Made by a program: the position numbers and the translations under genes | Source of the DNA: Siphlonurus alternatus | Lineage: Eukaryota > Arthropoda > Insecta > Ephemeroptera > Siphlonuridae | DNA length: 64,000 bases | Reading direction: 5' to 3' | Assembly: GCA_949825025.1 (NCBI GenBank) | Contig: OX463788.1 | Location: 27,103,036 to 27,167,035 of the forward strand | Notes under the pieces: generated by a model | What the model saw: the letters and a program-made list of their open reading frames with translations, nothing else | Told to the model about the DNA's origin: nothing | Databases searched by the model: none | In this document: piece by piece, positions 6,601 through 55,219 of the stretch | Layout: every line of letters starts with the position of its first letter | Position numbering within the stretch: the stretch's first letter is position 1

Positions 6601-9600
6601 ACAAAAAAGGGGTGTGTGAGACGTGCGAGTGTTAAAAATCGTGCAGTTATTATTAATTTACGTCGCTCCCACTCTCATAGTTGTCTTTTTTTTTTTTTTT
6701 TTTTTGCTGTGAAGGTTTGTCCTAGTGCATTAAGTTTGTTTCTAGTTTTTTTTAAAAATCGGACGATTGGATTATATAATTTTTCTAATGTCACTGAAAT
6801 GCAGGGTATGCTTGTTTAATAAATGGGTTCAGTTTCAATCCACATAACTCGGAAACTGGATCGTATTTGTACTGGCGATATTTTAAGAGCTAATAAACGA
6901 CATAGAGGAGAACATTTTAAGATATGTTCACAGGAAATGAGAGTGGAAAATTTAACATTGGTGGCGTTATCTTACCCTTAACAATGTTGGTATGGGACAA
7001 GGAATTATTCTACATCTTTAATGTACTTGCTGTATTCTTTAAACCTTAAATTTGTATCAATGTAAGATGGATAGCTTAATAGGCTACTACACTACGTTAA
7101 ACAAAATATGAAAAAAAGGACATGCAGCAGTGAGAGGAAAATAATTCCTCAACCTGCAAAAATGTGAATAATCAAAGTTCTACAATTTTTAACACTATTC
7201 ATGCATGTATTTGTTCCCAAAAGATGAGTTTGAACCAAAGACGAGAAAATACAAAATTCCATCTTTTAGTTGTTCAAATCAATGGAAGCAAATACCGAAG
7301 ACTATTATTCTGGCTTTGGTTCATTTATGTTTGAGCACCTTGTAAGCAGCATCACCTCAAACTTTCTCTTCTTCCTTCAATACAAACCTTATAGAAAGGT
7401 CTTGCGACCTATGACAATCATACTATATATGACAGTATAGGTAGGTTCCTGTAGGATGTACAAATTTTGGTACAATTCTTAAAATCTTATCTTTTTTATT
7501 TTGTTGATTAATTTCTACTCTGGCTGCTCCACTATCTGATGACCAGCTCTGGTGGTGGTATCTACTTGGCTAAAATGGCTACTATAAAGTTGTAATTAAA
7601 TTTTAAATCAAAAAGATTCTATCAAAGTGCAAGATTTTGTTTTAATTGTTTGTGCCAATCCTGAGAGTGTGTTCTGTTTATTAGCGTACTATAGCAATAG
7701 CTGCAATACAAACAACATTTTGACAGACATTAAAATTGTGCACATTCTGGAATTATTAGTTAATTGTAAATTAATTCATAATTCATAATTATTTATTGCT
7801 TTTCGATTGTACAACAATATAAGCACGTCAGATACATAATCACAGTAAAAGTTAAGGATCGTCAATTCATTATCACATAAAAAAAACATAACATTGGTAC
7901 AAAAAAAAAAAAAAAAAGAAAAAAATTGCACTGCATTCCCTTGTAAAAAAAACTTATGATTTAGTATACTTTATCATACATTAATATAGTATAATTTAAT
8001 AAAAATAGTATACTTCCAGCTTTAATAAAGTATACTTTAGTATAATAAAAAAAGTATAATTATAATACTTATTTCGTATAATTTAGTATACTTAGTATAC
8101 TAAATTTATTATAATAAATGTTTGATATATCACAAATTTATTATACTTAATTATATTAAATTTATTATACTAAATGTACTAAAATTATTATACTTAGTAT
8201 AGTTTCTATAATTAAAATAGCATAAAAATTAGTAAATCGTCCCCGTCTGCAATAATGAACAATAATAATATGTTACCAAGATCTTGTGTGAAATAATAAT
8301 ACATCTATGTCTTCTATTTCATGTACATGATTGCAACAATGAGCTTTATTTTATATATTTTTCAAGCTCCTAATTGCATTCATCTGATATAGCAGATAGG
8401 TCAGTATTGCACATAAGATCATGGTTATTATCCCCGTTTGACTTTTGTCGCTTTGGCACAAAAAAATAATTTGTCCGAGTACACGTCATGAAAATTTTCA
8501 AAATCTGTTTTTTTTTTTATTATCAGCCAAATAACTATTCATACATAAGTTTTTTTAATGCAGCAACTAAAAGTATATATATTAGCATGGCGTAATATAA
8601 AAAGATGAAAAAAATATATATAGAACAAATGAAAATTATGCACTAACGGAAAATAAAAGACCAATATTATATATAATATATATATATATTATATATGTAT
8701 TATATATAATAATAAATAGTACAAGAACTACCAGATACCAGAAATTTTGAACCAAGATCAAAATTGGAGCAGTTAGCAATAATAGCATATATATATCATG
8801 CAATGTTAAATTTATAGAGCAAGCTAGCGTGCATGGATCAAGGATCGAGGTTTGGGGTCGTGACTAAACTTGCATTGTAAAATCTCTCAACAAAGCTCGA
8901 ACTTTAATTATAAAAGAAAATCATCAAAAAGTATCCTTTTACCTTAATGAATGTAAATATTAACAAGAAGAAAATCAATTATGGATACTTCCCGTCATTT
9001 TTCTGTATTTTCATCAAAAGACGCCATCGTCGTGCTCACAGAAACTTCCCATCAGCTGACTAAATTATTACAACGCTTTCTGATGCTCATTTGTTTTTAA
9101 TGGTAGCCATCTTGTATAATAATAAAATTATACTTCATTATAATTTAGTATACTTATTTTATTATAATCCTGTAATATTATAATTTTTATGATTTAATTA
9201 GTATAATTTATCATTAATTTATTATACTTTTTTCTATGCTTAGTATACTTCTAAAGTATAATAATATATACAAAGTTATTATAATAAAATAATTTATAAT
9301 ATATTATACTCTAGTATACTAATTATACTTTGCAAGTATACTTGAGTATAATAGTGTTTTACAAGGGTTGTCATAAATAATGTTCCAGCTAATATGCAAC
9401 TAATTTGGCAATTTCCAATTTCTGTTATTCTATTCAGATATATATGCACAGTAGTTAAATTATGAGGCTAGCTAGTTTACAAATGATCTAGCAAATTATG
9501 AATGTATTTGAAAACTTACAATTGTATTCTTTTTCTTTTCATAGGTCAAAGTTGAAAAGTCAAGAGGGAAGCAAATTATTGATGCAGTCATGGCTACAGA

Positions 9601-9842
9601 GAGCAAATAATTCAAAATCTGTGCAGCAAAAGGATGAGGACAAGGATGTAGTGAAATGTTCCAAACCAGCTGCCTCTCAAGATCTTGTAGTGTTTTCTGT
9701 TAACCAGCATGAGAAAATGGGAGATATCAAGAGTAAGGTAGCCTCTAAACACAATCTTGGTGTTGGTGAGGAGCTTGGTGAAAGCCAGGACAACAAAGGC
9801 TCCAAGAGGCAAAAAATTATCAAGGATGAACATGATATTTAA
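3649..9842 (+). CDS. HMCES: HMCES: SRAP-domain abasic-site DNA-protein crosslink protein (5' exon(s) missing)
   Basis: HMCES shields abasic sites in single-stranded DNA at replication forks by forming a covalent crosslink through its N-terminal Cys. Five exons fit in frame: 3649-3831, 4542-4655, 5130-5237, 6119-6264 and 9545-9842. All have AG acceptors and GT donors. The phases are 0, 0, 0, then phase 2, with a Met codon split between the last two exons. The visible SRAP motifs are HNSRSE (the Asn active-site position), CVVLCDGFYEW (the Glu), LLSMAGIFSEW and IHNRMPVIL (the His). The last exon encodes a lysine- and serine-rich tail with GSKLLMQSWLQR near its start, and stops at TAA. About 283 codons are visible. 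The exon with catalytic Cys2 and the RWGLVPSW-type segment is not in the window. Introns hold a TTAA MITE, a SINE, a foldback and element G. The frame is intact, so the gene is probably functional. Confidence 0.93.
4055..4448. mobile_element. TTAA-flanked palindromic MITE, copy 2 (HMCES intron)
   Basis: Starts GGTAGAGATAACGCC and ends GGCGTTATCTCTACC, flanked by TTAA on both sides (4051-4054, 4449-4452). The arms are inverted copies throughout, for example CAGCTGTTTG, AACATGTAAACCTTAGCAAA-like and GCCTAAAAG blocks. The terminal motif is shared with the copies at 1672 and 11253, but the interior differs, so it is a sister subfamily. It lies between HMCES exons 1 and 2 of those visible. Confidence 0.85.
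5533..5862 (+). repeat. tRNA-derived SINE (HMCES intron)
   Basis: The head GCTCTGTGGTGTAGTTTTTA resembles a tRNA D-arm/A box. It is followed by AGTTCAATTCTCG about 40 bp downstream, a degenerate pol III B box. The body runs to GGCCACACCCGAAAGGG near 5848 with no coding sense. Spacing and order fit a tRNA-derived SINE inserted in sense orientation in an HMCES intron. It is too diverged to be a working tRNA gene. Confidence 0.6.
5927..6039. repeat. Short foldback element
   Basis: CCATGAAAAATCATCATTTT and CCGTGG at the left pair imperfectly with CCACGC and AAAATGGTGGATTTTTATGG at the right, giving a roughly 110-bp hairpin. It lies in the same HMCES intron as the SINE. It is probably a miniature inverted-repeat remnant. 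Confidence 0.6.
6312..6977. mobile_element. TTAA-flanked TIR element (HMCES intron)
   Basis: TTAA at 6308-6311 is followed by GGGAAAGGTAATGC; GCGTTATCTTACCC precedes TTAA at 6978-6981. The terminal repeats are imperfect but clearly related to the GGTAGAGATAACGCC ends of the other TTAA MITEs here. The interior is not palindromic and holds a GCCGCGATCGCAGCGCC patch at about 6336 and a poly-T tract. An open frame at 6616-6819 spans the poly-T and is not credible as a gene. The flanking HMCES intron continues on both sides. Confidence 0.65.
6982..7937. other. HMCES intron sequence, nothing recognised
   Basis: AT-rich intronic DNA between the TTAA element and element G. It contains no open frame of note, no terminal repeats and no RNA-gene motif that I can see. 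Confidence 0.5.
7938..9367. mobile_element. Element G: CCC/GGG TIR element with AGTATACTT repeats
   Basis: Left end CCCTTGTAAAA, right end TTTTACAAGGG (11-bp perfect TIR), in a 2-bp duplication TT (7936-7937, 9368-9369). Both arms (about 7960-8215 and 9120-9360) consist of degenerate TAGTATACTT/TTATAATA words. The core is unique. It holds a 39-codon open frame (8981-9100, starting MDTSRHFSVF) and an AAGATGG motif read on the minus strand near 9110. There is no transposase. It sits in the last HMCES intron. Layout matches elements B, C, D, E, F, H and I. Confidence 0.75.
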
Positions 9843-9873
9843 TGAAGCTTTGTGCTGTTCTGAATGACATATG

Positions 9874-11814: not shown

Positions 11815-11823
11815 CAAGGATTT

Positions 11824-11868
<45 letters not shown>

Positions 11869-14213: not shown

Positions 14214-15111
14214 CAAAAATTCTGTCAGATCTATACATAAAAGTTTATACCCTGCTCAAAAATCTTGAGCCAAGATCTTGTAAGATCTTGGCAGATCTTG
14301 GCAAGATTATGCTCATGATAATCTTGCAAGATCTTGCAAGATCTTTCCCAAGATCTTGCACAAGATCTTGCAAGATCTTGCAAGATCTTAAGTAAGATCT
14401 TGAGCAAGACATATCATAATATCTTGAGCAATTGTTATCTTGCTTAAGATCTTGCAAGATCTTGCAAGATCTTGTGCAAGATCTTGGGAAAGATCTTGCA
14501 AGATCTTGCAAGATAATATTTGCTCAAGATCTTGTGATATTATCTTGCTCAAGATAATATTTGCTCAAGATCTTGTAACAGCATCTTGCTCAAGATCTTG
14601 TAAGATCTTGCAAGATCTTGTGCAAGATCTTGGGAAAGATCTTGCAAGATCTTGCAAGATAATATTTGCTCAAGATCTTGTGATATTATCTTGCTCAAGA
14701 TAATATTTGCACAAGATCTTGTGACAGCATCTTGCTCAAGATCTTGCAAGATCTTGCAAGATCTTGTGCAAGTTCTTGGGAAAGATCTTGCAAGATCTTG
14801 CAAGATAATATTTGCTCAAGATCTTGTGATATTATCTTGCGCAAGATAATATTTGCTCAAGATCTTGTGATAGTATCTTGCTCAAGATCTTGCATGATCT
14901 TGTCAAGATAATATTTGCTCAAGATCAAAATAATTGCGCAAGATCTTGTGCAATGCTGTCGGTTGGTTTAAATCCGTTGAAAGGCAGCCATGTTGGGTCA
15001 GTAATGTAGCGGCAATTCCAAGTAGCAATCTCCGAGTCACGTAGCCAACATAACGTACTGAAAAAAAAAACAAACAAACAAAGTTAGTATTCTGTTAGTT
15101 GCAGCTAGTTT

Positions 15112-15815
15112 TCGTTAAATAAGGAAGTCTCATGATGCATGGTTTCATTTCTTTATGGATATGTTCATCATCTTTGCTTTCTTCCACCTCTCCGTTCAAT
15201 AATTCTTTTACTCCGCGGGCCATGCCATGTATTTTCTCCTTCAGCTAGGCTCGGTGGAACCTGGGGGTCAAAAACAAAGAAACTCGTCAATAAAATTAGG
15301 CACAAATCTAGAAAGTTCTTGTTTAAGACATTTCCTTTAGAAATTTAGCAAATCTTGCACAAGATCTTGCAAGATTTTGATCAATTTATCATACATTGCA
15401 GTATTTTATACATACCTGTTTCAAAATATCACAAACAAAACCCTGCATTGCAAATAATCTCTATGACTTGTTGCTTTATGCATACAACAGCAGCAGGTTG
15501 TCCTCAGTATATTCGCGTCATCATATTCCAGGTTTGCAAGCAGTTGCAAGGCAAACAGGAAGCAGGTCCGGCCATCCGAATTTCATGAAAAAACATAAAA
15601 TATTCTATGAGCTTAACAATATATTAAACAAAAACAACTAAACATAAGTTTAAGCTTACCTGGAACTGTGTATAAAGTACTAAATTAGCACAAATGAACA
15701 CAAAATCTTCATGTTTCTTCTTCAGCTCTTACGTTCACCAACCGTCCATTTTCAGTTTCAACACATGTTATAAAAACGCGTATCGCATTGCATTTGTTTC
15801 GCCATCGCGCGCAAT
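15112..15815 (-). pseudogene. Candidate spliced gene fragment in core of element F
   Basis: On the minus strand the core shows an ordered set of gene-like signals. There is a GCGCGATGGCGAAAC start-like patch near 15807. A donor TTCCAG|GTAAGC has its exon ending at 15660, and a donor GAAACAG|GTATGT has its exon ending at 15416. An acceptor TTTTTGACCCCCAG opens an exon at 15260. Exon-like segments are open in one or more frames, for example a frame with LQLLANLEYDDANIL at about 15480-15540. I do not recognise the protein. It could be a captured host gene 5' end or the remnant of an original transposase gene. The phases were not fully reconciled, so confidence is low. Confidence 0.3.
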
Positions 15816-16129
15816 TTTGAAAACGAATAAAAATGCACCGATCAAGATGAAAACTTGTATCCAAGGGTTAATTGGCAAGCTGAATTTAATGAAGGTGATT
15901 AAATTACCCTGACTAATTATTGGGGGTGCTGTTACCCTTATTTAAAAAAAATTGAATATTGCGATTCTGAATAGAAAAAAATCTGCAAACGGGTGCGATC
16001 GATCGGCAAAAAAATTATATGACCATGGGAAGGTTTTCACACTTACTAAAATCTTGCGTAAGAAATTACTTCTTGAACAAGATTGCCATTTTATACAAGA
16101 AAAATTTTGCCATAACTATGAAAAGAAGT

Positions 16130-18060
16130 GTTAAGTTTTTTCTTGCTCGAGTCTGTTACTTGCTCAAGATGGAAATCTTGGGTAAGAAAAGACATGTTGG
16201 ACAAGACTTCCATCTTACGCAAGACGGTAACTTGTCCAAGAAATAATCTTGCAAAAACCATGAAAATAAGCATATGATTTTTTCTTGCTCGAGTCTATTA
16301 CTTGTCCAAGATGTAAATTTTGGGTACAAGATGTTAGTTAATCTTGGGTAAGAAATGATTTTTTGGCCAAGATTGCCATCTTACGCAAGATGGTAACTTA
16401 CCCAAGAAAAAATCTTGCGATATCTATGAAAAAAAGTGTAAGATTTTTTTCTTGCTCGAGTCTATTACTTGCCCAAGATTAAAATCTTGGGTAAGAAATG
16501 ATTTCTTGCACAAGATTGCCATCTTACGCAAGATGGTAACTTACCCAAGAAAAATTTTTGCGATAACTATGAAAACAAGCGTAAGATTTTTTCTTGCTCG
16601 AGTCCATTACTGGCCCAAGATGGACCTCTTGGGTAAGAAATGATTTCTTGGACAAGATTGCCATCTTACGCAAGACGGTAACTTACCCAAGAAAAAATCT
16701 TGCGACAACTATGAAAACAAGCGTAAGATTTTTTCTTGTTCGTGTCTATTACTTGCCCAAGATGGAAATCTTGGGTACAAGATGGAAATCTTGGGTACAA
16801 GATGGAAATCTTGGGTAAGAAATGATTTCTTGCACAAGATTGCCATCTTACGCAAGATGGTAACTTACCCAAGAAAAAATCTTGAGAAAATTTTGAACAC
16901 GCGCGCAAGATTTTTTCTTGCTTAAGTCTATTACTTGCCCAAGATGAATCTCTTTGGTAAGAAATGATTTCTTTGCCAAGATTGCCATCTTACGCAAGAC
17001 GGTAACTTACCCAAGAAAAAATCTTGCGTTAACTATGAAAACAAGCCTAAGATTTTTTCTTGGTCGAGTCTATTACTTGCCCAAAATTGAAATTTTGGGT
17101 AAGAAATGATTTCGTGCACAAGATTGCCATCTTACGCAAGACGGTAACTTACCCAAGAAAAAATCTTGCGATAACTATGAAAACAAGCGTAAGATTTTTT
17201 CTTGCTCGAGTCCATTACTGGCCCAAGATGGATCTCTTGGGTAAGAAATGATTTCTTGGCCAAGATTGCCATCTTACGGAAGACGGTAACTTACCCAAGA
17301 AAAAATCTTGCGATAACTATGAAAACAAGCGTAAGATTTTTTCTTGTTCGTGTCTATTACTTGCCCAAGATGGACCTCTTGGGTAAGAAATGATTTCTTG
17401 GCCAAGATTGCCATCTTACGCAAGACGGTAACTTACCCAAGAAAAAATCTTGAGATAACAATGAAAACAAGCGTAAGATTTTTTCTTGTTCGTTCTATTA
17501 CTTGCCCAAGATGGAAATCTTGGGTAAGAAATGATTTCTTGCACAAGATTGCCATCTTACGCAAGACGGTAACTTACCCAAGAAAAAATCTTGAGAAAAT
17601 TTTGAACACGCAAGCAAGGTTTTTTCTTGCTGAAGTCTATTACTAGCCCAAGATGGAAATCTTGGGTAAGAAATGATTTTTTGCACAAGATTGCCATCTT
17701 ACGCAAGACGGTAACTTACCCAAGAAAAAATCTTGAGAAAATTTTGAACACGCGCGCAAGATTTTTTCTTGCTTAAGTTTATTACTTGCCCAAGATGGAA
17801 ATCTTGGGTAAGAAATGATTTCATGGACAAAATTGCCATCTTACGCAAGACGGTAACTTACCCAAGAAAAAATCTTGCGATAACTATGAAAACAAGCGTA
17901 AGATTTTTTCTTGTTCGAGTCTATTACTTGCCCAAGATGGAAATCTTGGGTAAGAAATGATTTCTTGCACAAGATTGCGATCTTACGCAAGACGGTAACT
18001 TACCCAAGAAAAAATCTTGAGAAAATTTTGAACACGCGCGCAAGATTTTCAATCTTACGT
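16130..18060. repeat. 142-bp tandem array (right arm of F)
   Basis: The unit contains TCTATTACTTGCCCAAGATG, AAATCTTGGGTAAGAAATGA, TTGCCATCTTACGCAAGA and CGGTAACTTACCCAAGAAAA. Equivalent points recur at 16452, 16594 and again at 17060, 17202 and 17344, exactly 142 bp apart. About 13 units are present, some with internal duplications. Because 142 is not a multiple of 3, the same peptide recurs in separate frames, each ended by a stop; this argues against coding. Confidence 0.85.
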
Positions 18061-18503
18061 AAGATTTTTTCTTGAGCAAGTTAATTACTTGCCAAGATGT
18101 CTATCTTGCGTAAGAAATGACTTCTTGAGCAAGATTACCATCGTGCGCAAGCCATAAACTAGCTCAAGAAATAATCTTGCAAAAAATTCGAAAACACGCG
18201 CAAGATTTTCTATCTTGCAAGATATTTTTTCTTGCGCAAGTATGTTTCTTGCCCAGATGTCGATCTTACGTAAGAAATGACGTCTTGAACAAGATTATTA
18301 TCTTGCTCAAGATCTTTTTAAACCAAAAATATCTTATTTTTTTATTTTTCCCAAATTTTTTGCTTAAATATTATTTTTAGAAGCATAATATATATTCCTG
18401 ACCAGCATTGATTACTGTCTTGCCTCTGTTTTGGACTTCTTGAGTTCACTTGACAAGATCATAAAAGATCTTGTAAGATATTGCTCAAGATTTTTGAGCA
18501 GGG

Positions 18504-19945: not shown

Positions 19946-20329
19946 TCGATATAATTATAAAGTATAGAACTAAAATATGTAATATAATGATTCGTAAATT
20001 AAGCATTGAGTTTTTGTTTATTCAATTTTATCTTTTTTTTTTCTCTATATATTACATACATATTATTATTTATTAAATAATACAATATCCCAGTGACCAA
20101 ATGGACGTCCCCGGGACGCCCCGGGGACGCATCCCTCTAAGGTCCCCGTTGGACATCCCCAAGGACATCCCCCATGTCCATCAAAAAAGGACGTCCCTGC
20201 GGACGTCCTGTGGACATCCCTCGGGGATGTTCCCTAATTTTCACTTAATTGCCAATTATATATTAATTCATCTTAAAATTTATATTAAAGAAGTTTAGGG
20301 TCTTTTAGAATGAGGACTACAAGATTACC

Positions 20330-20420
20330 AAATAAAAAAATTGGGTCCGTCGGGAATCGAACTCGGACCTTTTGGTTGATAGACGACGTCGTAGACAACT
20401 TGGATATTGCTCTTCGTTAC
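20330..20420 (-). repeat. tRNA-like SINE fragment, minus strand
   Basis: On the minus strand GAGTTCGATTCCC (near 20351-20363) is a near-perfect pol III B box, followed by GACGGACCC. An A box is not clear upstream. It is the third tRNA-derived SINE head in the window and lies inside element I. Confidence 0.5.
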
Positions 20421-21894
20421 TAAAGTGTGGTTTAGTTAGGTATATAAATTGTAGAGTTTTGGGTGTTGTATAATATTTTACGAGCGAAGTTGCGTTTTTT
20501 TATTTTTTTTAAGCAAACTGGTACATTGGGAGATTGTTATTATTTAATACAACATTAAATATATTGAGATTTAAATTTTTTAAAAATAAATTAAAATAAA
20601 ATTTTATAATTCTAATAAAAACATGTTTATACATTAATTAATTATAATTTGCAACGCTCAAATATGCATCTCTAATTGTTAACAGACTTCGACATTAAAA
20701 AAAAATTTTTTTAATTTTTTAGAAATTTTGAAAGGTCCCTCCGAGGACACATTTGTGGGACGTTCAAGCGTCCCTCTAAAATCCCCGGGGGACTTTGATG
20801 GGACCTTGTTTATTTTTCATATATATTTTTTTCTACGAGGATATTTTATTAAAAAAAATTAATATTCCGTGCAAATAACGCAATTTAATATTAAGTAAAA
20901 TTTCACGTCTTATTATAAATATTAATATTTTCATATAATATTTTAAATAATATTAACTAAATTTGTATATTTTTAAAATCAGTACATAATAATGAACAGC
21001 ACATATTATGATTTTAATGAAAACATTGACTAAAGGGTCCTTTCAAAGTCCCCCGGGGATGTTCAAGGGACAGCCGTGTTTTGCATCCCCAGGGGATGTT
21101 CTGAGAGACATTCATAAAAATATTAAAAAACCTAGAAATTTGTTTTCGAAGTGTAGCTAAAACCTTTTTTAGAACACGGAAAACATGTTCAAAGTTAAAG
21201 GGTTTTGAAAACTAGCACGTAAAACGTTCAGGGATAATAATAATAATAAATATTTTATTGAGCAGAAACAGACAAATTACAAATGTCACAGTCAATAAAT
21301 GAAAAACTGCCCAAGGGGATGTAAAAAAAGGCAAGGCCCATACCTAAGTTCTACACCCAAAATAAAGTAAGAGCAACTAAACAAAAGTTGCAAAAGTATA
21401 CAATATGTAATATATATATAAGCTAACTACAAAAGTAGATGTAAGAATAATAAATTTACATCATTGCCTTAAATAAGCTAGTTTTTAAAGATTTAACATT
21501 AGGATGAAGCTTATTATATGCCCTTACAACACGTGGAAAGAAAGAATTATTATAACAATAAGAGTTACAAACAGGAAAAATGAACTCAGTACTTTCTTTA
21601 TTACGTAGCATACTTGGCTTTGTACGTAATGTAATCCTGTCATCTGAAAAAATGTTCATATCAACTTCACCACGCAAACACTTGTGAAAAAATACCAAAT
21701 CATTACGGCGAAGCACATCAGAAATAACAGGTATATTACATAAATCACCTCTTTCTTCACCACTATATTTACACTTAACACCATTATTATAGAAAAATGC
21801 ATCCCTTCCAAGTATAAGACGGGTAGCACGATTTTGAACCCTTTGAAGTTTCTTAGTGTTAGTGACAGTAACAGGATGCCAAGCAGGAGTACCA

Positions 21895-23302
21895 TGTTAC
21901 GGACCCTTGCTTCCTACCCTCGATGAAACTGAACGATGGGCCTCAGGTTGTCTAGGGGTGAGAGTAGGATGGGCGAGAGTCCGACAACTCCGTCAAATTA
22001 CTATGAGCCACTAGCTTAGCTTTAACTAAGCCTACTTCTTCCTATTTTCTTTGTTCTATTTTATTATAATAGAAAAGATATTATAGATTGTAAATTAAGA
22101 AGATTGAAATTTAAAATTGACAAACACTGACTCTATTTTATTTCATATATTTTGTAAACAAAAGGTTGGGAAAATACATTATGGACAAATATTATTGTTA
22201 TGTGGATTTTTGACTGTAGAAAACGTTGGATTAAATAATTATGTTAAGCAGACAGTTTAATACTTAGGTGTGTTGTTGAAATAATAATTGCGTTGAATTA
22301 TCTTGAGGTTATCTGTAGACTCTGTAGTAAAACACAACGAAGATCTTAATTGTCGCAGACAGCCGTGGACACTACCAGCTGGTGTTTCGCTGATCGTCGG
22401 CAGGTTGACGATCAGCTACTGCCATCTGTAGCCGGACCCATGCACTAGGCCACCAAACAAAGGATTTTGAGAATCCGCGAGCGCGGCGGCAACATGTTTC
22501 ACCGCTGACACTCAAGCGAAGACTGACGAGAATTTTCTTGATGCGCGCCTTTGTTCCATATGGTCACATGGTACAAAATGACGTAACATTTATGAATTTC
22601 GGTGCTGCCACATTGTGAATTTTGTTCCTGTTATAACACTTTACTAATTTTTAAGACAAGTTTTTATCATAAAATTAAATTATAATTTACATAAAAACAG
22701 TAGATAACATAATTATTATTAAACAGCGTTATTTTTATACAGAAAGGTAAGCAAATTTGACGTTAAATATTAAATTATGGCGTGTTTTATGAGCCGGCAA
22801 AAGAGCAATTTTATATTATTTATATTAACACAACAAATAGCTATTATGATTAACTGCATACTTCTATGCACACTTTGAAAAATAATCTATTGAAAAATGC
22901 CATTAGTTTTACTTGAAACAAATAATTTATGGTTAATTTTTAAGACATTTGCACGAGGGGTAATTTTGGTTCATACGAGATTACATAAAAAATACATATG
23001 TTATTTACCTTGTAAGCAGCTTAAATGAAAGTAGATTTAACATATTATCAGATGTGCTAATAGGTTTAACTCGGGAATTTTTTCCCATTGTGTAGTTTTA
23101 ATTTGAAAGAAAATTTATTAACATTTGGGCGTGATTAAAAATGTCGGCAGTTCGCCCGTACCAACCGTAAAATTTCAAGGAATTTTAAATTGGAATTTAA
23201 GTTGGTAGCTTACAAACAAAATATTGAGCGCGTAAACCTTGAACGCAATTTGGAAAAGGAAAAGTAATTATTAATAATATGAATAAAAATGGGGATGTTA
23301 TA
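21895..23302 (-). repeat. LTR (left copy) of the minus-strand LTR element
   Basis: 1,408 bp, beginning TGTTACGGACCC and ending GGGGATGTTATA on the plus strand. It is nearly identical to 24911-26651 apart from the MITE in that copy. It contains CCATATGGTCACATGG and AATGACGTAAC patches that may be promoter elements. Confidence 0.85.
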
Positions 23303-34966: not shown

Positions 34967-34998
34967 TTGGTAATACAGATAATGAACCCTATAAAAGC

Positions 34999-35574: not shown

Positions 35575-35916
35575 AGATTTGCAATATTTGAGCAACCACT
35601 TTAATTTTGCATTAAAGTTTAAGACAACTTCTTGTCAATTAATTTAAATCTTGATTTTAATATTAAATATTGTTGTGGGAACTCAAATTATTCTATTGTT
35701 TCAGTTAGGATGTATTTTCTTTGATATTGCAAAGCTGTTCGTAATAAAACTAAAGTAATGTAATTTTACACGGCAGCAAAGTTTATAATTAGTTTTAAGT
35801 TTTAAATCTTGTAACCACCATTTAGATTTGTTGTTGGCTATCCTAGTTTGATTTCACAAAATCTTTTGCAGTAATTTAACTTTTATTTGCAGGAGCAAAT
35901 AGTCCAGGACAGCCGA

Positions 35917-36212
35917 TGTTAACTATTAATTTTGTTTAAAGTAAGATAGCGCCCTCTCTCGGTAAATTATAGTCATTCAGCTGTTATTTTGTATTAAAAC
36001 CGGAAGTACGTAGGAAGTAAAAAGAGAGAATGTTGATGGCAGCATGAAAAGTGGTGGATCTTTTGTGACATCGTCAGAGATGTGGTGTAAAATAGTTGGT
36101 TTTACAATATAAAAACCTTAAACTTACATATGCTCTTGTTATTGAAACTCTAGTTAATCCTGACAATTCTAGTTAAGAAGGAAATAGTAGGAAATCACCT
36201 CTAAAGTTAACA
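35917..36212 (+). repeat. 3' LTR of the gag-pro element
   Basis: Same 296-bp length as the 5' LTR with about ten or fewer differences by eye. The sequence before it (GTCCAGGACAGCCGA) is not a convincing purine tract. Confidence 0.85.
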
Positions 36213-40800: not shown

Positions 40801-42074
40801 GGTGTTATCTTCCATAAACCGACTTTGTGGGAAGATTTGGTCGATAACCGTGTGAAAATGCTTGAAAAAGTGTAAAAATAGGTGAACTTGCATGAACGGA
40901 CTTTGTGGAAAAAGTTGGTTAGTAAAAGGGTCAAAATATGTCAAAAAGTGTCAATATATGCATGAACGGACTTTGTATTAAAATTTGGTCGATAAAAGAG
41001 TGAAAGTTCGTGAAAATATGTCAAAAAGTGTCAACATGCATGAACGGACTTTATGAAAAAAGTTGGTTAGTAAAAGGGCCAAAGTTCGTCAAAATATGTC
41101 AAAAAGTGTCAATATGCATGAACGGACTTTATGAAAAAAGTTGGTTAATAAAAGGGTCAAAGTTCGTCAAAATATGTCAAAAAGTGTCAATATGCATGAA
41201 CGGACTTTATGGAAAATGTTGGTTAGTAAAAGGGTCAAAGTTCGTCAAAATATGTCAAAAAGTGTTAATATGCATGAACGGACTTTATGGAAAAAGTTGG
41301 TTAGTAAAAGGGTCAAAGTTCGTCAAAATATGTCAAAAAGTGTCAATATGCATGAACGGACTTTCTGGAAAAAGTTGGTTAGTAAAAGGGTCAAAGTTCG
41401 TCAAAATATGTCAAAAAGTGTCAATATGCATGAACGGACTTGGTGTAAAAATTTGGTTGGTAAAAGGGTGAAAGTTCGTGAAAATATGTCAAAAAGTGTC
41501 AACATGCATGAACGGACTTTAAGGAAAAAGTTGGTTAGTAAAAGGGTCAAAGTTCGTCAAAATATGTTAAAAAGTGTCAATATGCATGAACAGACTTGGT
41601 GTAAAAATTTCGTCGGTAAAAGGGTGAAAGTTCGTGAAAATATGCCAAAAAGAGTGAATTTAAATTGTGTCAAAGTAGCTGAAAGTACGTCAAAATGAAT
41701 CAATTTACTTCATATTAATTGTAGAGCAATAAATGCGTGAAAATGCTTGAAACTTTATCAAAATGGGTGAGTGAAAATAAGTCAACAGGCATCAATGTAG
41801 GTGAAGTTCACACCAAATTAGAAATACTTGGATATACGTGAAACTGCGTGAATCTGTACGAGTCAATTGTGTGAAAATATGTAAGTATATGTCAATATGG
41901 GTGAGTGAAACTGCTTGAAATTCACCTATTTTGATAAATAGCTGAAAATTTGTCAATATGCTTGAATGAAGCGTCAATCTGCATGAGCCATACTTCAATA
42001 TATTTCAATGTATGGGAATATGGGTGAGATTTTCAACCATATTGACGAATTATTCACGTTTTTTTTCTCGTGGG
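37841..42074. mobile_element. Element E: CCC/GGG TIR element with TTGACATATTTTCACG repeats
   Basis: Left CCCACGAGAAAATAAGCGTG, right ...ACGTTTTTTTTCTCGTGGG; 2-bp duplication AA (37839-37840, 42075-42076). The left arm (37860-39470) and right arms (40300-40760, 40780-42050) are arrays of CATATTGACGCATTTTGAC-type words in opposite orientation. Parts have a 78-bp unit, and a 210-bp segment (about 38030-38330) is duplicated. The 78-bp period is divisible by 3, so frames such as 41010-41471 and 41141-41698 stay open; they are repeat artefacts, not genes. The unique core is 39480-40290. Confidence 0.88.
39545..40290 (-). pseudogene. Promoter-like and exon-like core of element E
   Basis: On the minus strand the core starts with GACCGGAAGT-like (reverse of 40306) and ACAAGATGGCGACATAGC (about 40270), which are ETS- and YY1-like. 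About 200 bp downstream is ATGTCAGAATCGGATG (near 40050), opening MSESDV, a TAG, then SCIQDEKKKIKTREVVYQIS in the same frame. Near 39602 an acceptor-like GCACATTTCAG|GTATCG opens a short terminal segment ending before 39550. I cannot assign a protein. The layout resembles a gene 5' end joined to a 3' exon, with the middle missing or intronic. Confidence 0.35.
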
Positions 42075-42534
42075 AACCTGCTGCTCAGTAGGACGGCTAT
42101 TGAAAAGTTGGCGCGGTCGTGTTGTGGAGTCCTAATCAAGTTCGCTCTGCCCCACCTTTCAGATGTCAGCACTGCATGAGTCAAAACATGTTTTGAATGT
42201 GTCATTTAAGTACCAAATAAAAATTCTTAATTTATTTTTTCTGTACTTTTTCGTATATAGAAAATTAAAAAATAATTTTTGATACTAAAAAAAATTAGTA
42301 AACAGCATATTTTATGGCAGGAGCAGGGGCAGGGAAATTTTGATCTAAGGTTGCCAGGTAAGACTTGGTATCCCGTACCAGCACACCAGGTAAAATCTTA
42401 CCAGCCAGGCTATGCAGAGTGACCATTTCTTACCAGCCAGGCTGGTACGGATATAATGTTAAATTGTACCTGCAGATGGCCAAGTTTGTTACCAGGCACC
42501 TTACCAGGTTCAACCAGACCGTAGAGATAGGGTA

Positions 42535-44203: not shown

Positions 44204-45099
44204 TACCCACACAGCACACAATGGATATTTTTTAGATGATATCTAGATATAATCTGTATAGAACTTTTTACTTATCTAAAAATTATATAGATATTATCTA
44301 TGAACTTTCATGGATATTTTCTAGCTAAATGTCCTCTATTTTTTGGATAAAGTTATCTTGTTAATATCTTATCCTATAATTATACAGTTTTTATCTAGCT
44401 ATATTATCCTCCTATATACTATGCTTCTATTTTTAAGTAAAAACACACATAATAATTTAATTTAACAAACATTTTTATTATTTATAACATTTCTCAATCA
44501 ATATACATTAAAGGAATTTTTAAAAAATTTGTGATAAATCATCATACATGTAGAATGATAAAAAAAATAATATTATATGACAAAATTGGTTCTCATTTCT
44601 TAAGAAAACTTAACTGCTGCTGACATATTATAACATAAACACATATATTATATAATACTGTATGCATATTCATTAATATTTCAATATATATTAATAATTA
44701 TAATATTAAATGCATATAGCTAGTCACTGCATGCATGGCATACAGTATAACAAATTCCATATAAAACAATAATTAACTGTATGCCTACAGTATGCATTAT
44801 ATATGTTTTGTTTTAATTGTTATTAAAAAAGTAAAAGAACCTTAATTAATTTGAGCAATACAGATGTACTAAATTATTATAAATATGCAAGAGTATATAA
44901 AAATACAAGGAAAACAACTGCAATTTAGTATGCATACATTAAAAATTATCTCACTTATTCATTTTAAAAACATATACACACTGTTCTCCCTACTTGCTTG
45001 GCTTCTTTTGCTGGTCAGCATTGCTGATCTGTAGTGATGATCTGATGATATTGCCCAATACAGCTGCTGGCTGCAGTTTTCAGGAACCAATATGTTGCA

Positions 45100-46095
<996 letters not shown>

Positions 46096-47922
46096 AATTA
46101 TACCCGCGATGCAAAAAAATCGCTCCAGATAGAGAATAGATAAAATTATCTATAAAATATCTAGATAAAAATATCCTCAGATAAATTATAGATAAAATTA
46201 TCTATAAATATGCAGTAAGTTTTAAAAAGTTTACATACGCATTAATTATTTTAATTTATTAATTAAAGAAAATTTTAATTAATTTAGGTTTCAAAATTTA
46301 ATTAATTCAAAATTTCAATGGAATAAACAAATATGTACATAAAATTTAAATATTAAAATTATTAATTAGAAGTATATAATGTAACATTAAATAATAATAT
46401 TTTGTGTTCATTCTTTTTTTATACATTATATACAATAAATCTATTAAATCTGTATTATTATATTATTTATTATAAATTTTTACTGTCATGTGCATGTTTA
46501 AAATTTGGATAACTTTATCTATGTAATATCTCTTCCAAAATAAGCAAAGGTAAAAGATAGCAGTATCCAATTTTTATCTACATATTATCTCGGCACTTTA
46601 GATAAATATTGTATAAATATTAGATATCGTTATCTTGAATTGTGGTATATCCACTAAATATCTGCATATACAAAATATATCCAAAAAATATCTAGATATT
46701 GAGTTTTGTGTGCTGTGTGGGTATTGTTTTAAGTTAAAAACAACAAATTCCAGCAAAGTATGCAGAGGGAGAGAGAGTAGTGGAATGAGAAGATAGATAC
46801 AGTAATGTTAAATTTTAAATCTAGTATGGTTTGCTCAATAAGGTGCAAATTTATAGTACTAAAAATTACATAGCTTCAGTTGGATATTAGCCATTTTTTG
46901 TAAAATTCTAACATCTCATTTTATTTATCTCTAAATTAAGCAATAACCCTGACTCCACGGCACAGTAGGGCATAATTGGGCACAGTTAGGTAACCTGTAA
47001 TGCCCATGAGTATCCAGTAGGGCACAGTGTTTATATTAGGTACCCCAGAGCATCCTAGTTTTCTACGATTGGCGTAATTTGACACATTGAATACACTCTT
47101 TGAAGTTGTATCGACTGTGAACTAGAAGGGGCTTAAATGATGCTTTAATTGAAATATTATATCCAACTGATATTTTTTGTCATTAAATAAACTACATCTA
47201 ATTACTATCAAATTTATTTGTTTAATTTTGGACTTTGAAAAAATTTATACACGGATGGTAGCGCCATCTGTTTCTAAAAAATTGAAGTAAGAAAAAAAAA
47301 AGCAACATCCCTAGTCAAAAAAATAACTCAATGGTCAATTGGTTGACTACTGCCAGTGGTAAATTGGCTAATGGTCAAGTAGTCTTGGTCAAACTGTCAA
47401 GTTCGTGGTCAAGTTCATGGTCAAGTGGTCGTGGTCCATTTCATGGTCAAGTAGTCGCGGTTTCAAGTGATCCAATGGTCATGTAGTTGCATATATATGG
47501 CGCCACCTCACGCCGTACATCATGAGCAGCAAAAACTTTAGTTAGCCTCAGATATATTAGTAGAGATCGAATGATGCTGGAACATGTGATAAAATTATTC
47601 TTCCAAATTTTTACTTTGAATTGGTAAAAGATAGCAAAAATGCTACAAACAAAACAAATATAAAGAAAAATTTATATTAATTTTTTACGCAATTTCATAT
47701 TAAATTTTATCAATATCATCACAATATTAATTAAAAAAGAAATCAGCAAAACAATTATTTTCAAACAGTCACTTCTTTAAGTAATATATTTACCCATGAT
47801 AGCGTCTCTTTCCGGCGATCTTTTTTATCATGTCCCAAGAGCCGATAAACATTGACCCTGACTCCACGGCACAGTAGGGCACAATTGGGCACAGTTAAGG
47901 TTCACAGTTAGGTAAGCTGTAA

Positions 47923-50900
47923 CCCACGTCTAAATCTGGACTGGTCTGAGCTGATTAAGGTAGTTCAAATCAGCTCATGCAGTTCAAATGAGCTAATATT
48001 CTGGACTGTTTTGAACAGTGAAGCTCAAATCAGTTCAAATGTTTTTTTAACTATTCTGAGCTGTTTCCTGCTCAAAATTGCTGCAGTTCAATGCAGTTTG
48101 AATTAGTTCATATCAGCTCATAACCTTTCTGCAGCTCAAAGTAGCTTCAGCTAGCTCAAACTAGTCCTGTAGTCCAGGACAGTCCACCGCAGCTCAGAAA
48201 GTCCAGTTTAGTTCAAACCAATTCAGCGGCAGTCCAATGCAGCTCAGACAGTCCAGTCTAGTTCAAATTAGTTTATTGAAGCTCAGACAGTCCACTTCAG
48301 CTCAGACAGTCCCGTCTAGTTCAAATTAGTCCATTTAAGCTCAAACGGCCACTGTAGTCCAGGACAGCCCACCGCAGCTTAGACAGGCCAGTTTAGCTCA
48401 AACCTGTTCAGCGAAAGTCCAACGCAGCTCAGACAGTCCAGTCTAGTTCAAATTAGTCCATTGAAGCTCAGACAGTCCACTGCAGTCCAGGACAGTCCAC
48501 CACAGCTCAGACAGTCCAGTTTAGCTCAAAACAGCTCAGCGGCAGTCCAATGCAGCTCAGACAGTCCAGTCTAGTTCAAATTAGTTAATTGAAGCTCAGA
48601 CAGTCCACTGCAGTCCAGGACAGTTCACCGCAGCTCAGACAGTCCAGTCTAGTTAAAATTAGTCCATTGAAGCTCAGACAGTCCACTGTAGTCCAGGACA
48701 GTCTACCGCAGCTCAGACAGTCCAGTTTAGTTCAAACCAGTACAGTGGCAGTCCAATGCAGCTCAGACAGTCCAGTCTAGTTCAAATTAGTTAATTGAAG
48801 CTCAGACAGTCCAGTCTAGTTCAAATTAGTCCATTAAAGCTCAGATAGTCCACTGCAGTCCAGGACAGTTCACCGCAGCTCAGACAGTCCAGTCTAGTTC
48901 AAATTAGTCCATTAAAGCTCAGACAGTCCACTGCAGTCCAGGACAGTCCACCGCAGCTCAGACAGTCCAGAGTCTAGTTCAAATTAGTCCATTGAAGCTC
49001 AGACAGTCCACTGTAGTCCAGGACAGTCCACCGCAGCTTAGACAGTCCAGTTTAGCTCAAACCAGTACAGCGGCAGTCCAATGCAGTTCAGAGAGTCCAG
49101 TCTAGTTCAAATTAGTTAATTGAAGCTCAGACAGTCCACTGCAGTCCAGGACAGTCCACTGCAGCTCAGACAGTCCAGTCTAGTTAAAATAAGTCCATTG
49201 AAGCTCAGACAGTCCACTGTAGTCCAGGACAGTCTACCGCAGCTCAGACAGTCCAGTTTAGTTCAAACCAGTACAGCGGCAGTCCAATGCAGCTCAGACA
49301 GTCCAGTCTAGTTCAAATTAGTTAATTGAAGCTCAGACAGTCCACCGCAGCTCAGACAGTCCAGTCTAGTTCAAATTAGTCCATTAAAGCTCAGACAGTC
49401 CACTGCAGTCCACCGCAGCTCAGACAGTCCAGAGTCTAGTTCAAATTAGTCCATTGAAGCTCAGACAGTCCACTGTAGTCCAGGACAGTCCACCGCAGCT
49501 TAGACAGTCCAGTTTAGCTCAAACCAGTACAGCGGCAGTCCAATGCAGTTCAGAGAGTCGATCCAGTCTAGTTCAAATTAGTTAATTGAAGCTCAGACAG
49601 TCCACAGCAGTCCAGGACAGTCCACCGCAGCTCAGACAGTCCAGTCTAGTTCAGACAGTCCACTGTAGTCCAGGTTAGTCCACCGCAGCTCAGACAGTCC
49701 AGTTTAGCTCAAACCAGTACAGCGGCAGTCCAATGCAGCTCAGACAGTCCAGTCTAGTTCAAATTAGTTTATTGAGAAGCTAGCTTAGTTCTTTTATTAC
49801 ATATTTATAAGATATTATAATTATAAAACACCATCATGACATGCAAATGCTCACAAATAAATTACAAAATTTAATTAAATTACATAATTAGTGAAGTCTA
49901 TAAAAATCAAAGAGGTAGAAATAATAAACTATAAAAACTGAACTTTCGTCGTGCAGCAGCATTTATTTTGAAGAAAGTGGTGTGTTTTCACCATCAATGC
50001 CCATCATGCATTGCGCCAAGAACTGAGCCGCACAAAGCGCCATCTTGTTTTGAAACGGTTTTGAAATTTGTACCGGTCCGACCGGCGACCAGACGCTGCT
50101 ATTATTTTATCTCAATGCTGCTTATAGTTGGCTGCTAGCTAGCGTGTGGTGTTGTGATACAAATTATTGTTTTGTGTACTATTTGACGTATTAATTAAAC
50201 TACTATATTTCAAACTCTTCGGCATGTAATCTATTAGGCTTCTTTCACAATCACGCCGCAACATTTTGCAAAAAAATCAAGCTTCACTTGATTTTCTTAC
50301 GGCGGTACGTTTGTTGCGGCATATTTTTGCAAAAAAATCGGACCATGTGAAAGGAACTTTATAAGGTAAGATATTTTGTGTATTAAGTCCGTATGACAAC
50401 TATCAGGGTTAAATCTGATCGGAATATTTTTCTTTTCCCTGCTGCTGTCCAAGTGGCACTCTCTCTCTAACAGGCCCGAGACGCTGCCAAAGTGTGAATA
50501 TTTGGGAACGAATACTACCTCATCTCACTGATAACGTATACCAGTAAGATCCTGTGGTCAGAGGTACAGTAACTTTCTTTTAAATATTGAGGCCTTGTAT
50601 GCATACTGTATATCATAGTGTATGTTCGAGCCTAACAACTATGTATGCACACTGTACCGGTATGACATGCATACTGTACATATACTGTACTGTAACATTA
50701 CAGTATGCATACATAATACTCTATGCATTATGCCTGTTTTTATTGCTGTAAAAGAGCTTTCACATATTATGCATTTGCATACTACATGCAAAGTCGTAAT
50801 TTGCCACGGCTTTCCGCAGAAAAATTACTTCATTTTCTTTCGGATCTCTATTTATAAGACACTCTGCAGCAATTTTTGATTATGTGTAAGAAGCTTAATA

Positions 50901-52413
50901 CATTTTCTATCTGTATGCATGTTTTTTTTTTTTAGTTTTGTATAATATATACACTATTGTAGTTTTTCTTTGATTCTCTTACTTACACTTTTTCCATATA
51001 AAAATACTTACAGTACTGGGTATGCATAATTATTGATACTGTACATTTGCCAGGGTTTTTAGTGTTAACAGCTATCTATTGAGTTCATTTTCTTCACATT
51101 ACCAGTATTTTCTTTTTGTGTAGCATGAGTGAGTGCATTTATATAATACTTTACTGTTACAACTTTGACGAAGACATGACTGACAGGACACTCCAGACCG
51201 ACACCATGGGGCATGCAGGTAGCTATAAGTGAGTACCGTTTTGTGTGTCGAGATCACCATTTGAATGTTCAGGTAAATGTTGTAGCACTACCTGTGTTTA
51301 GTAACCTGGACCTAGCCACGACCGTCCGGACCGACACCCGGGGGCATTAAGGTAGCGGGTGAGTACCATTTTGTGTGTCAACATTTGAATGTTGTAGCGC
51401 TACCTGTGTGCAGTTCTGAGCTGCTTTAGACAGTCCTGGACTGCGGTAAAGTTACTACATTGCATTGGACTCGTTTGAGCTAGACTGGACTATTCTGAGC
51501 TGCGATGGACAGTCCTGGACTGCAGTACAGCTGCTATAATGTATTGAACTCTTTTGAGCTAGGCTGGACTGTTCTGAGCTGCGATGGACAGTCCTGGACT
51601 GCAGTACAGCTGCTATAATGTATTGGACGTGTTTGAACTAGACTGGACTATTCTGAGCTAGAATGGACAGTCCTGGACTGCAGTACAGCTGCTATAATGT
51701 ATTGGACGCGTTTGAGCTAGGCTGGACTATTCTGAGCTGCGATGGACAGTCCTGGACTGCAGTACAGCTGCTATAATGTATTGGACGCGTTTGAACTAGG
51801 CTGGACTATTCTGAGCTAGAATGGACAGTCCTGGACTGCAGTACAACTGCTATAATGTATTGGACGCGTTTGAGCTAGGCTGGACTATTCTGAGCTGCGA
51901 TGGACTGTCCTGGACTGCAGTACAGCTGCTATAATGTATTGGACGCATTTGAACTAGGCTGGACTATTCTGAGCTGCGATGGACTGTCCTGGACTATAGT
52001 AAAGCTGCTACAGTGCATTGGACTCTTTTGAGCTAGGCTGGACTGTTCTGAGCTAGAATGGACTGCCCTGGACTGCAGTACAGCTGCTACAGTACATTGG
52101 ACTCTTTTGAGCTAGGCTGGACTGTTCTGAGCTAGAATGGACTGTTGCATGTATAGCAGCAATGAACTGGTTTGAGCTATAATGGACTGCCTGAGTATCA
52201 GCGTAAACGAGCTAGTTTGAGCTAGGCTGGACTGTTCTGAGCTGTATTGTCTGGACTGCTATGAGCTATTTACAACTGTGGCCAGTTCAAAATTGGTAGC
52301 TCAAACAGTTCAAAACCGGCCAATTTTATACTATTTACAACTATCTGAACTAGCATAATTTTGAACTGATCTGGACTGCTGCAGTTCAGATGTAGTCTAG
52401 ATTTAGACGTGGG
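47923..52413. mobile_element. Element C: CCC/GGG TIR element with AGCTCAGACAGTCCA repeats
   Basis: TIR of 20 bp with one mismatch (left CCCACGTCTAAATCTGGACT), duplication AA (47921-47922, 52414-52415). A1 is the empty site (CCTGTAATGCCCATGAG near 46991). The left arm (47930-49780) is an array of GACAGTCCA, AGCTCAGA, TAGTTCAAATTAG and GCAGTCCAGGACAG words, with roughly 39-80-bp higher-order units. The right arm (51410-52395) is the inverted equivalent (GGACAGTCCTGGACTGCAGT, TGAGCTAGGCTGGACT; about 80-bp unit). It is the innermost, hence youngest, member of this chain. Frames in the left arm (for example 48589-48780) are repeat artefacts. Confidence 0.92.
49990..51231 (+). pseudogene. Promoter-like patch and short coding exon in core of element C
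   Basis: CAATGCCCATCATGCATTGCG (about 49995, split here by its 20-base core CCCATCATGCATTGCG) resembles the ZNF143/SBS promoter site. GCGCCATCTTGT (about 50038) is YY1-like. Donor-like TATAAG|GTAAGA lies near 50366. An acceptor TTTTGTGTAG opens an exon at 51124, whose first codons are ATG-initiated: MSECIYIILYCYNFDEDMTD and a further 12 residues to a donor GCATGCAG|GTAGCT at 51218. If unspliced it ends at TGA (51229-51231). A diverged second copy of ACCGACACC-GGGGCAT lies near 51329. Protein not recognised. Confidence 0.35.
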
Positions 52414-52734
52414 AATGCCCATGAGTATCCAGTAGGGCACAGTGTTTATATTAGGTACCCCAGAGCATCCTAGCTTTCTAAACTTGGCGTAACTTGGCAC
52501 ATTGAATACACTCTTTGAAGTTGTATCGACTATGAACTAGAAGGGGCTTAAATGATGCTTTAATTGATATATATAATATCCAACTGATATTTTTTTTCAT
52601 TAAATAAACTACATTGGCAATATATCTAATTATTATCAAATTTACTTATTAATTTTGGACTTTGAAAAAATTTATACCCGGATGGTAGCGCCATCTGTTT
52701 CTAAAAAATTGAAGTAAGAAAAAAAAAAGCAACA

Positions 52735-53216
52735 TACAACATATGATATGGGTGTCATTGTCAACAAAAACAGAGATGCTGTCTCTTTTTTATTGGAAAA
52801 GTCTGCTTTGCAGTCTTTAAAGAAGGTAAGAAATATATTAAAAAGTATATTGAAATAGCAAAGTTCTTTTTTTTTCTAATAAATTGCTTCTTTTTTACAG
52901 TGATTATTACAAATTCTAACATCATGAGAGGCCCTATCATAGCTTTTCTTTCTCCAGCCCAGCCCGCCCCCTTGAATTCTCTCTTTTCTTTCAACACTGA
53001 GGAAGTTATGCCCAGGCTAGCTACTTATGTGGTGAGTTAAATATTTACAAAATCTATTCATATGTGTGTTATAATCTCATTTTCATAATTTTACAGGCAA
53101 TGAATTCAACTCTGCTGCATGAAATGCTGATTAGTGGATTCTATCACCAGACATCATGGCCGCCAATATGCGGGATAGAGACAAAAGAGTTGCAGCTGCT
53201 AGCATCAATGTTTTAA
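52735..53216 (+). pseudogene. Spliced gene fragment in A2 (three exons)
   Basis: The exon ending at 52825 (AAAGAAG|GTAAGA) joins 52901-53031 (acceptor TTTTTTACAG, donor TATGTG|GTGAGT) and 53097-53216 (acceptor ATTTTACAG, TAA stop). Reading KVCFAVFKE, then VIITNSNIMRGPIIAFLSPA, continuing through NTEEVMPRLATYV, then AMNSTLLHEMLISGFYHQTS and on to LQLLASMF-stop, the frame is open and the phases agree (1 then 0). About 95 residues can be read. I do not recognise the family. The same three exons occur in A1. It is either a host fragment captured by an A-family ancestor or what is left of its own gene. Confidence 0.5.
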
Positions 53217-53383
53217 TTTTTTATGCTAGAGTACTCTGTTAATTACCATGATAAAATAAAAATATTTAAAAAACTACATCTTTTTAGTAATACGTTAACT
53301 TAATTAGCTTTAATGAAATAAAAAAATAAAAAATTAATAAGGAGAAGGGGCGGGGGAGAGCTACCAAGTCTAAACCATTGGTC

Positions 53384-53436
53384 GAACTGTGATTTTCACA
53401 GTTCGGCCATTTTGTGAGAATCACAGTTCAGCCAAG
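53384..53436. repeat. Inverted GAACTGTGATT repeats in A-family right arm
   Basis: CGAACTGTGATTTTCACAGT, then GGCCATTTTGTGAG and AATCACAGTTC, form a small hairpin. It is conserved in A1 at about 55007-55055. Confidence 0.6.
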
Positions 53437-54356
53437 TGTCTTTGACTAGGTACCTCTGTGAATTTCACAATTGCGCCGAAGCACAAGGGGATTAACAACC
53501 GGGCTGCCAAGTTCAAATTACAATGTTAATAGAACACAAGATTGAACTTGGCACCTAACTGTGCCCAACTGTGCCGTGGAGTCAGGGGAGTGTTTAAGGC
53601 TACCTGGAACAAATTATTCGACACAAAGTAACGAGATCATCACAAAAAAACATTTCATAATACGTTTAATGTACTGGAAAGGTACTTATCTCTGACATTA
53701 AAGTGCTTGAATTTCGATTAATTTCTAGGAACTCGATCTGCTTCTGAGGAACCGGACGCCATTTTAGATGCTTCATTTGATGGTCACTCGAAATGCGCAA
53801 CTGCGCATGCGCGGCATGCGCACGCAAGTGACTACTTTTACCAAATGGTCATAGTCAATGGTCATAGTCAATGGTCATAGTCAATGGTCATAGTCAATGA
53901 TCATAGTCAATGGTCATAGTCAATGGTCATAGTCAATGTTCATAGTCAATGGTCATAGTCATGCAATGGTCATAGTCAATGGTCATAGTCAATGGTTGAC
54001 TACTTGGTGAGATGGTAAATCGTCCTGGTGTGACTACTTTTAATTGGTAAATGGTCGGACCATTTACCAAGTAGTCAGACCAGGACGATTTACCATCTCA
54101 CCAAGTAGTCAACCATTGACCATTGACTATAATATGACCAGTGACTATGACCATTGACTATGACCATTGACTATGACCATTGACTATGACCATTGACTAT
54201 TGACCATGACCATTTGAAAACCATATGACCATTTACCAAATGGTCATGATTCATGGTCGGACTACTGAAGCCAGTAGTCCGACTACTTATTTCAGTGGTC
54301 CGACCATTTATTTTAAGTGGTCAAAGCCTGACCATTAAGCTACTTTTTGACTAGGG

Positions 54357-54836
54357 ATACAACATATGGGTGTCATTGTCAACAAAAACAGAGATGCTGT
54401 CTCTTTTTTATTGGAAAAGTCTGCTTTGCAGTGTTTAAAGAAGGTAAGAAATATATTAAAAAGTATATAGAAATAGCAAAGTTCTTTGTTTTCTAATAAA
54501 TTGCTTCTTTTTTACAGTGATCATTACAAATTCTAACATCGTGAGAGGCCCTATCATAGCTTTTCTTTCTCCAGCTCAGCCCGCCCCCTTGAATTCTCTC
54601 TTTCAACACTGAGGAAATTATGCCCAGGCTAGCTATTTATGTATGGTGAGTTAAATATTTAAAAAATCTTTTCATATGTGTATAATTTTATTTTCATAAT
54701 TTTACAGGCATTCATGCAACTCTGCTGCGTGAAATGCTGATTAGTGGATTCTATCACCAGAAATCATGGAAGCCAATATGCGGGATAGAGACAAAAGAGT
54801 TGCAGCTGCTATATGGCGTAATGCATCAATGTTTTA
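54357..54836 (+). pseudogene. Spliced gene fragment in A1, frameshifted copy
   Basis: Same layout as the A2 fragment: exon ending 54443, exon from 54518, exon from 54708. Exon 2 lacks 5 bp within the CTCTCTTT run, which breaks the frame, and has other changes (ATTATGCCCAGG, TTTATGTATG|GTGAGT). Exon 3 reads HATLLREMLISGFYHQKSWK and ends a little further on than in A2, because of an extra TATGGCGTAATG. Splice signals are conserved between the copies. Confidence 0.5.
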
Positions 54837-55219
54837 ATTTTTTTATGCTAGAGTACTCTGTTAATTACCATGATAAAATAAAAATATTTAAAAAACTACA
54901 TTTTTTTAGTAATATGTTTTAACTTAATTAGCTCTAATGTAATGAAAAAATAAAAAATTAATGAGGAGAAGGGGCGTAGGAGAGCTACCAAATCTAAACC
55001 ATTGGTCGAACTGTGATTTTCACAGTTCGGCCATTTTGTGAGAATCACAGTTCAACCAAAGGTCTTTTACTAGGCACTTCTGTGATATTCACAATTGCGC
55101 CTAGCCACAATGGGATTAACAACCGGACTGCCAAGTTCAAATTACAATGTTAATAGAACACAAGGTTGAACTTTTGGTACCTAACTGTGCCCTACGTACT
55201 GTGCCGTGGAGTCAGGGAA

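Follow-up and report, generated by a model that had tools for sequence, protein, structure and literature searches.

Eleven CCC-ended elements in a 64-kb stretch of Siphlonurus alternatus DNA, probably non-autonomous transposons of the animal CACTA/EnSpm group

In a 64,000-nucleotide stretch of the Siphlonurus alternatus genome (GenBank assembly GCA_949825025.1, contig OX463788.1, positions 27,103,036 to 27,167,035; hereafter the window), we find eleven elements from nine families (7938..55217), all of which (11/11) begin with CCC, end with GGG and lie between equal dinucleotides, in full agreement with an earlier reading of the letters without database searches (the sequence-only reading). 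The best explanation, with a probability of about 85%, is that these are non-autonomous DNA transposons of the animal CACTA/EnSpm ‘TRC’ type, which would be moved in trans and whose subterminal arrays would be bound by a second protein. Under this explanation, the CCC-started terminal inverted repeats (TIRs) would be acted on by a CACTA transposase encoded at another site in the genome, and transposition would most likely follow a cut-and-paste route. A second protein, encoded by an element and the counterpart of maize TNPA, would bind DNA at the family-specific subterminal arrays and help to bring both ends together.

Ends, duplications and order of insertion

Five of the elements have perfect TIRs, namely G (7938..9367, flanked by TT; 11 bp, CCCTTGTAAAA), F (14250..18503, TA; 21 bp), D (44206..46721, TA; 16 bp), A1 (46947..55217, AA; 21 bp) and B2 (47309..54356, AT; 13 bp). 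The TIRs of the others match in 24 of 29 positions in I (20089..27697, AT), 13 of 15 in B1 (28307..29986, TA), 39 of 40 in H (31253..42532, TA), 20 of 22 in E (37841..42074, AA), 27 of 28 in A2 (47856..53587, GA) and 19 of 20 in C (47923..52413, AA). The flanks of I read ATAT on both sides, and a 4-bp duplication fits them as well as AT does. Beyond CCC and a following A or T, the TIRs are mostly unlike between the nine families, with families A and H having the motif CCCTnnCTCYACGG in common, and self-BLAST confirms that interiors are unrelated between families, as the sequence-only reading had it. The flanking dinucleotide is TA in 4/11 elements and another in 7/11; in Tc1/mariner the duplication is always TA.

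We joined the flanks of each element and searched the window for a relative that spans the junction uninterrupted, which yielded an empty site for three of the eleven insertions. The site of C is empty in A1 (46981-47150), with a single AA; the site of B2 is empty in A2 (52576-52891), with a single AT and a 5-bp difference nearby; and the site of A2 is empty in B1 (29050-29211), with a single GA and one substitution beside the dinucleotide. Since only one copy of the dinucleotide is present at each of these sites, the 2-bp duplications of C, B2 and A2 are real, and the three insertions are true transpositions; the 3-bp duplication that is a feature of plant CACTA elements is not seen at any of them. 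The elements are also nested, with A1 holding B2, B2 holding A2 and A2 holding C, so that A1 inserted first, followed by B2, A2 and C; separately, E lies within H.

Scanned for CCC..GGG pairs whose TIRs score 11 or more and whose 2-bp flanks are equal, the window yielded 16 pairs; 100 order-2 Markov windows yielded 0.1 on average and at most 2. Of the 16 pairs in the window, ten correspond to elements listed by the sequence-only reading, five are formed by two fold-backs, and the last, 20783-21058, lies within I. B1 escapes the scan owing to a mismatch at base 5 and is accepted because of its relative B2. Among all inverted repeats, equal 2-bp flanks were counted in 5 of 13 CCC pairs versus 330 of 3977 pairs overall; this count omits any pair whose flanks are self-complementary (TA or AT, for example).

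The two fold-backs, 11250-11628 and 1701-2046, are related to each other (80-83% alike) and have long perfect arms. They show CCC..GGG and equal AT flanks, yet we rejected them as members because at 11295-11583 the palindrome extends outward past CCC (46/60 flanking bases match) and because 11286-11628 and 1701-2046 match each other beyond CCC. The pair at 20783-21058 (AT flanks, starting CCCCGGGGGACTTTGA...) carries the words of I and may be a small relative of I or the inner arms of I itself.

Subterminal words and arrays

Family words were counted in both arms of each element against 100 first-order shuffles, using the words of the sequence-only reading plus GGGCACAGT for family A and allowing no mismatch in the 7-base word, one in words of 9-10 bases and three in longer words. 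The count lies above every shuffle in 19/22 arms, with the words picked from the same sequence under test and the arm limits placed by hand. The weak arms are the right arms of I and of A1, the latter equalled by 1/100 shuffles, and the left arm of B2. Mirrored orientation of the words in the two arms can be read clearly in A, B and C, in part in E and not clearly in H. Four of the words are perfect palindromes (AGTATACT, CAAGATCTTG, TATCTAGATA and GGACGTCC).

Counts across elements show the words to be nearly private to their own element. AGTATACT is confined to G, GACAGTCCA to C and the E pattern to E, while CAAGATCTTG also turns up once in G and once outside the elements. The words of H and D have several matches elsewhere, and the 8-base core of D's word occurs three times in H.

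The layout of the arms differs from element to element. In G and D the palindromic words are scattered instead of being joined in large tandem arrays, AGTATACT occupying both halves of G and TATCTAGATA being the word of D; the words of I and H are GGACRTCC and TACCAGC. F has an array of CAAGATCTTG on the left (about 14262-14926), and its right arm (16174-18312) has no exact CAAGATCTTG but a 142-bp unit with related words instead. Arrays of E lie at 38437-39513, 40377-40764 and 40889-41659, and those of C at 48288-49761 and 51414-52146, the two being mutually inverted and 72-80% alike. In family B, B1 has arrays of a 24-bp unit (28413-28525) and a 73-bp unit (29406-29856), and B2 arrays of a 13-bp unit (53844-53996 and 54133-54207). 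The right array of F and the left arrays of C and E are examples of long ones.

Arrays of this kind could also be passive, having grown like satellites via slippage or unequal exchange with no role in transposition. The spread of unit lengths from 13 to 142 bp and the unequal size of the arms are compatible with such growth, as is the captured satellite DNA reported inside Chenopodium CACTA elements (PMC8978399). We nevertheless regard passive growth as rather doubtful, given that a word found in one arm is found again in the other, mirrored in families A to C, in part in E and without a clear pattern in H, that words stay nearly private to a family, the palindromic ones being without orientation, and that G and D carry scattered words and not large tandem arrays.

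The sequence-only reading saw in the elements one transposase system driving many families. In favour of a single transposase, with one partner protein, acting on all nine families are the CCC plus A/T and the 2-bp duplications common to all, the insertion of families into one another over time and the motif common to A and H. The same ends mostly differ after the first four bases, however, and each family has its own nearly private array word, as is described for CACTA families whose binding proteins are separate (PMC2613891). Private words are explained no less well by several related lineages, each autonomous, than by one transposase, and a single driver, though possible, is unlikely in our view and not favoured over several such lineages.

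The least ordinary observation concerns the two B elements. B1 and B2 have the TIR and an internal block in common (block identity 83-86%), while their arrays are largely different, with units of 24 and 73 bp in B1 and mainly 13 bp in B2. GACTACTT is counted 21 times in B1 and 8 times in B2, and GACCATT 24 times in B2 and never in B1; the residual GACTACTT in B2 indicates that the change was large yet incomplete. Aligned end to end, B1 and B2 match in 680/1268 paired columns, compared with 1138/1198 for A1 and A2, the low value for B being partly due to arrays that do not align. Our evidence for array change within a family is this one pair.

A tentative reading, to which we give somewhat less than even odds, is that TIRs and arms are separate recognition modules evolving at different speeds: the CCC TIR would be kept for a conserved transposase, and each family would have an array ‘code’ for its own DNA-binding protein, a code largely rebuilt within family B. 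If this were true, one genome would hold many CACTA lineages separated by array-code switching, caught within 47 kb. B1 and B2 offer a concrete case of within-family array change that further copies would make testable. Nine families side by side, partly nested and with internal empty sites, bear on the rate at which subterminal repeats and binding proteins coevolve, an issue that has come up with soybean CACTA elements (PMC2613891).

Coding content and other features of the window

Six-frame Pfam scans, with stops written as X, covered G, D, I, B1 up to 29780, H, E, the nest at 46947-55217 and the interior of F (14930-16200), and ten long reading frames were additionally scanned against Pfam; the arms of F (14250-14929 and 16201-18503), the last 206 bp of B1 and most inter-element DNA lay outside the six-frame scans. 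Matches over the curated cut-offs were to reverse transcriptase, gag, endonuclease and a host SRAP domain. We dismissed matches below the cut-offs (e.g., DUF485, TPX2, DUF4021, DUF7726, HC2 and MurD-like_N) as chance or array effects.

Two results weigh against the CACTA assignment. Nearly all element DNA having been scanned in six frames, no transposase domain, Transposase_21 or any other, turned up, with filters that may miss strongly decayed or multi-exon proteins; such an absence is to be expected of non-autonomous copies, and it agrees with the sequence-only reading, which saw no autonomous copy. The right arm of I has no match to its word, the left arm of B2 has one, equalled by 5/100 shuffles, and D has few word sites (three exact). 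Two controls, moreover, temper the excess of CCC..GGG pairs. At a TIR score of at least 8, 50 Markov windows gave a mean of 4.68 pairs per window compared with 18 observed, so that the 11-bp TIR of G is weak on its own; G is accepted because its word also fills both halves of the element. When pairs of at least 800 bp in the real window are ranked by all 64 starting trinucleotides, CCC comes only fourth, after ATA, TTT and TAT. These three are all AT-only, and 12/12 of the CCC pairs are unambiguous.

Since the scans revealed no transposase, class membership rests on the ends, the duplications and the layout. It is thus conceivable that the elements are members of a different superfamily, described or not, in which CCC ends and 2-bp duplications occur by coincidence, the more so as such duplications are made by several lineages, e.g., PlavakaA, ESTA and PHISTA (PMC12730594). 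The particulars fit these lineages poorly: the ends of PlavakaA and PlavakaB are given as TGT..ACA and CATCA..TGATG, respectively (PMC12730594), versus CCC..GGG here, and the non-TA duplications of seven elements speak against TA-only lineages such as ESTA and PHISTA. The combination of CCC and 2 bp, on the other hand, is documented in animal CACTA elements (PMC1636069, PMC4298943), and we consider another superfamily improbable.

Family A contains spliced-looking exons with GT..AG borders, at about 52736-53190 and on in A2 and at 54357-54800 in A1, which read as coding in A2 and are shifted in A1. A search for relatives of the joined A2 peptide found none; the exons may be a captured gene or a remnant of an element protein. 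In viral contigs, searched with the patterns of families A, H, C and E, the first three gave 0 matches each and E gave two, which align over at most 31 bases and look like chance. The family A pattern, the only one searched there, had 0 matches in a prokaryote genome collection, and no part of the window matched Rfam at gathering scores.

Other features lie within or beside the elements. A host gene with an SRAP domain (PF02586, E 1e-13, frame 1), presumably HMCES-like, is represented by presumed exons, seen as spliced-looking pieces, at 3610-9839 on the plus strand; should 9492-9839 be the last of them, G would sit in an intron. H holds, besides E, a long terminal repeat (LTR) retrotransposon (31512-36212, plus strand), whose LTRs are 96.6% identical over 297 bp, with ends TGTTAAC..GTTAACA and the 4-bp flank ATTA on both sides; it has gag and a weak protease match, and the Pfam scan found no pol match in it. 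A long interspersed nuclear element (LINE) with a reverse-transcriptase match lies inside I (about 21236-27620, minus strand) and contains an internal direct duplication of roughly 3 kb (98-99% identity), which is either real or an assembly effect. A second LINE (57263-61850, minus strand) has interrupted endonuclease and reverse-transcriptase reading frames, and a 239-bp dispersed repeat occurs at 27781-28019 and 56257-56495 (97.5% identical). A protein search with LINE sequence returned 5611 proteins. The SRAP-domain match, the LINEs and the LTR element suggest a eukaryotic host, probably an animal.

Comparison with known CACTA systems

The comparison with CACTA/EnSpm made in the sequence-only reading was the right lead, CCC and 2-bp duplications being known from animal members of the group (PMC1636069, PMC4298943). 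Its remark that canonical CACTA ends are absent holds for plant-type ends; in these animal members, the ends are themselves CCC.

The closest known systems are the CACTA-related ‘TRC’ elements described by DeMarco et al. (2006; PMC1636069) in fluke, beetle and mosquito, whose TIRs start with CCC, which that paper proposes as a possible animal core, and which have 2-bp direct repeats in 7/14 fluke copies. SmTRC1 of Schistosoma and the TRCs of Tribolium and Aedes resemble the elements in the window in their CCC start, 2-bp duplications, empty-site evidence, some internal repeats and TIRs of 10-54 bp (PMC1636069). They differ in encoding a Transposase_21 protein, with none found in the window elements, and the available part of their description contains no long, mirrored, private two-arm arrays. 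Hydra Spongebob/EnSpm-4N1_HM, placed in the CCC/2-bp animal group by those two features, likewise has a CCC-started TIR (CCCAGCCAACATTGAC) and 2-bp duplications; its TIR differs past CCC, and arrays are not described in the accessible portion of the source (PMC4298943). Keyword searches confined to open-access papers, Repbase Reports not included, turned up no account of such long private arrays among animal CACTA elements, which is no evidence of novelty.

Family-specific subterminal repeats in both arms, a general CACTA trait, are seen here in the 19 enriched arms. In plants, the layout is that of maize En/Spm and soybean Tgmt*, in which a TIR is combined with family-specific subterminal repeats bound by TNPA and non-autonomous copies are moved in trans (PMC2613891), as we propose for the window elements. 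The plant elements have CACTA ends, with a 3-bp duplication in Tgmt*, in contrast to CCC..GGG and 2 bp here. According to the same source, CACTA transposases are conserved, probably since they act on conserved TIRs, and subterminal repeats and their binding proteins diverge. Since published animal members share CCC and 2-bp duplications (PMC1636069, PMC4298943), the suggestion that the system is possibly undescribed does not hold for the class: CCC-ended animal CACTA/EnSpm elements with 2-bp duplications are already described, and the nine families are new within that class.

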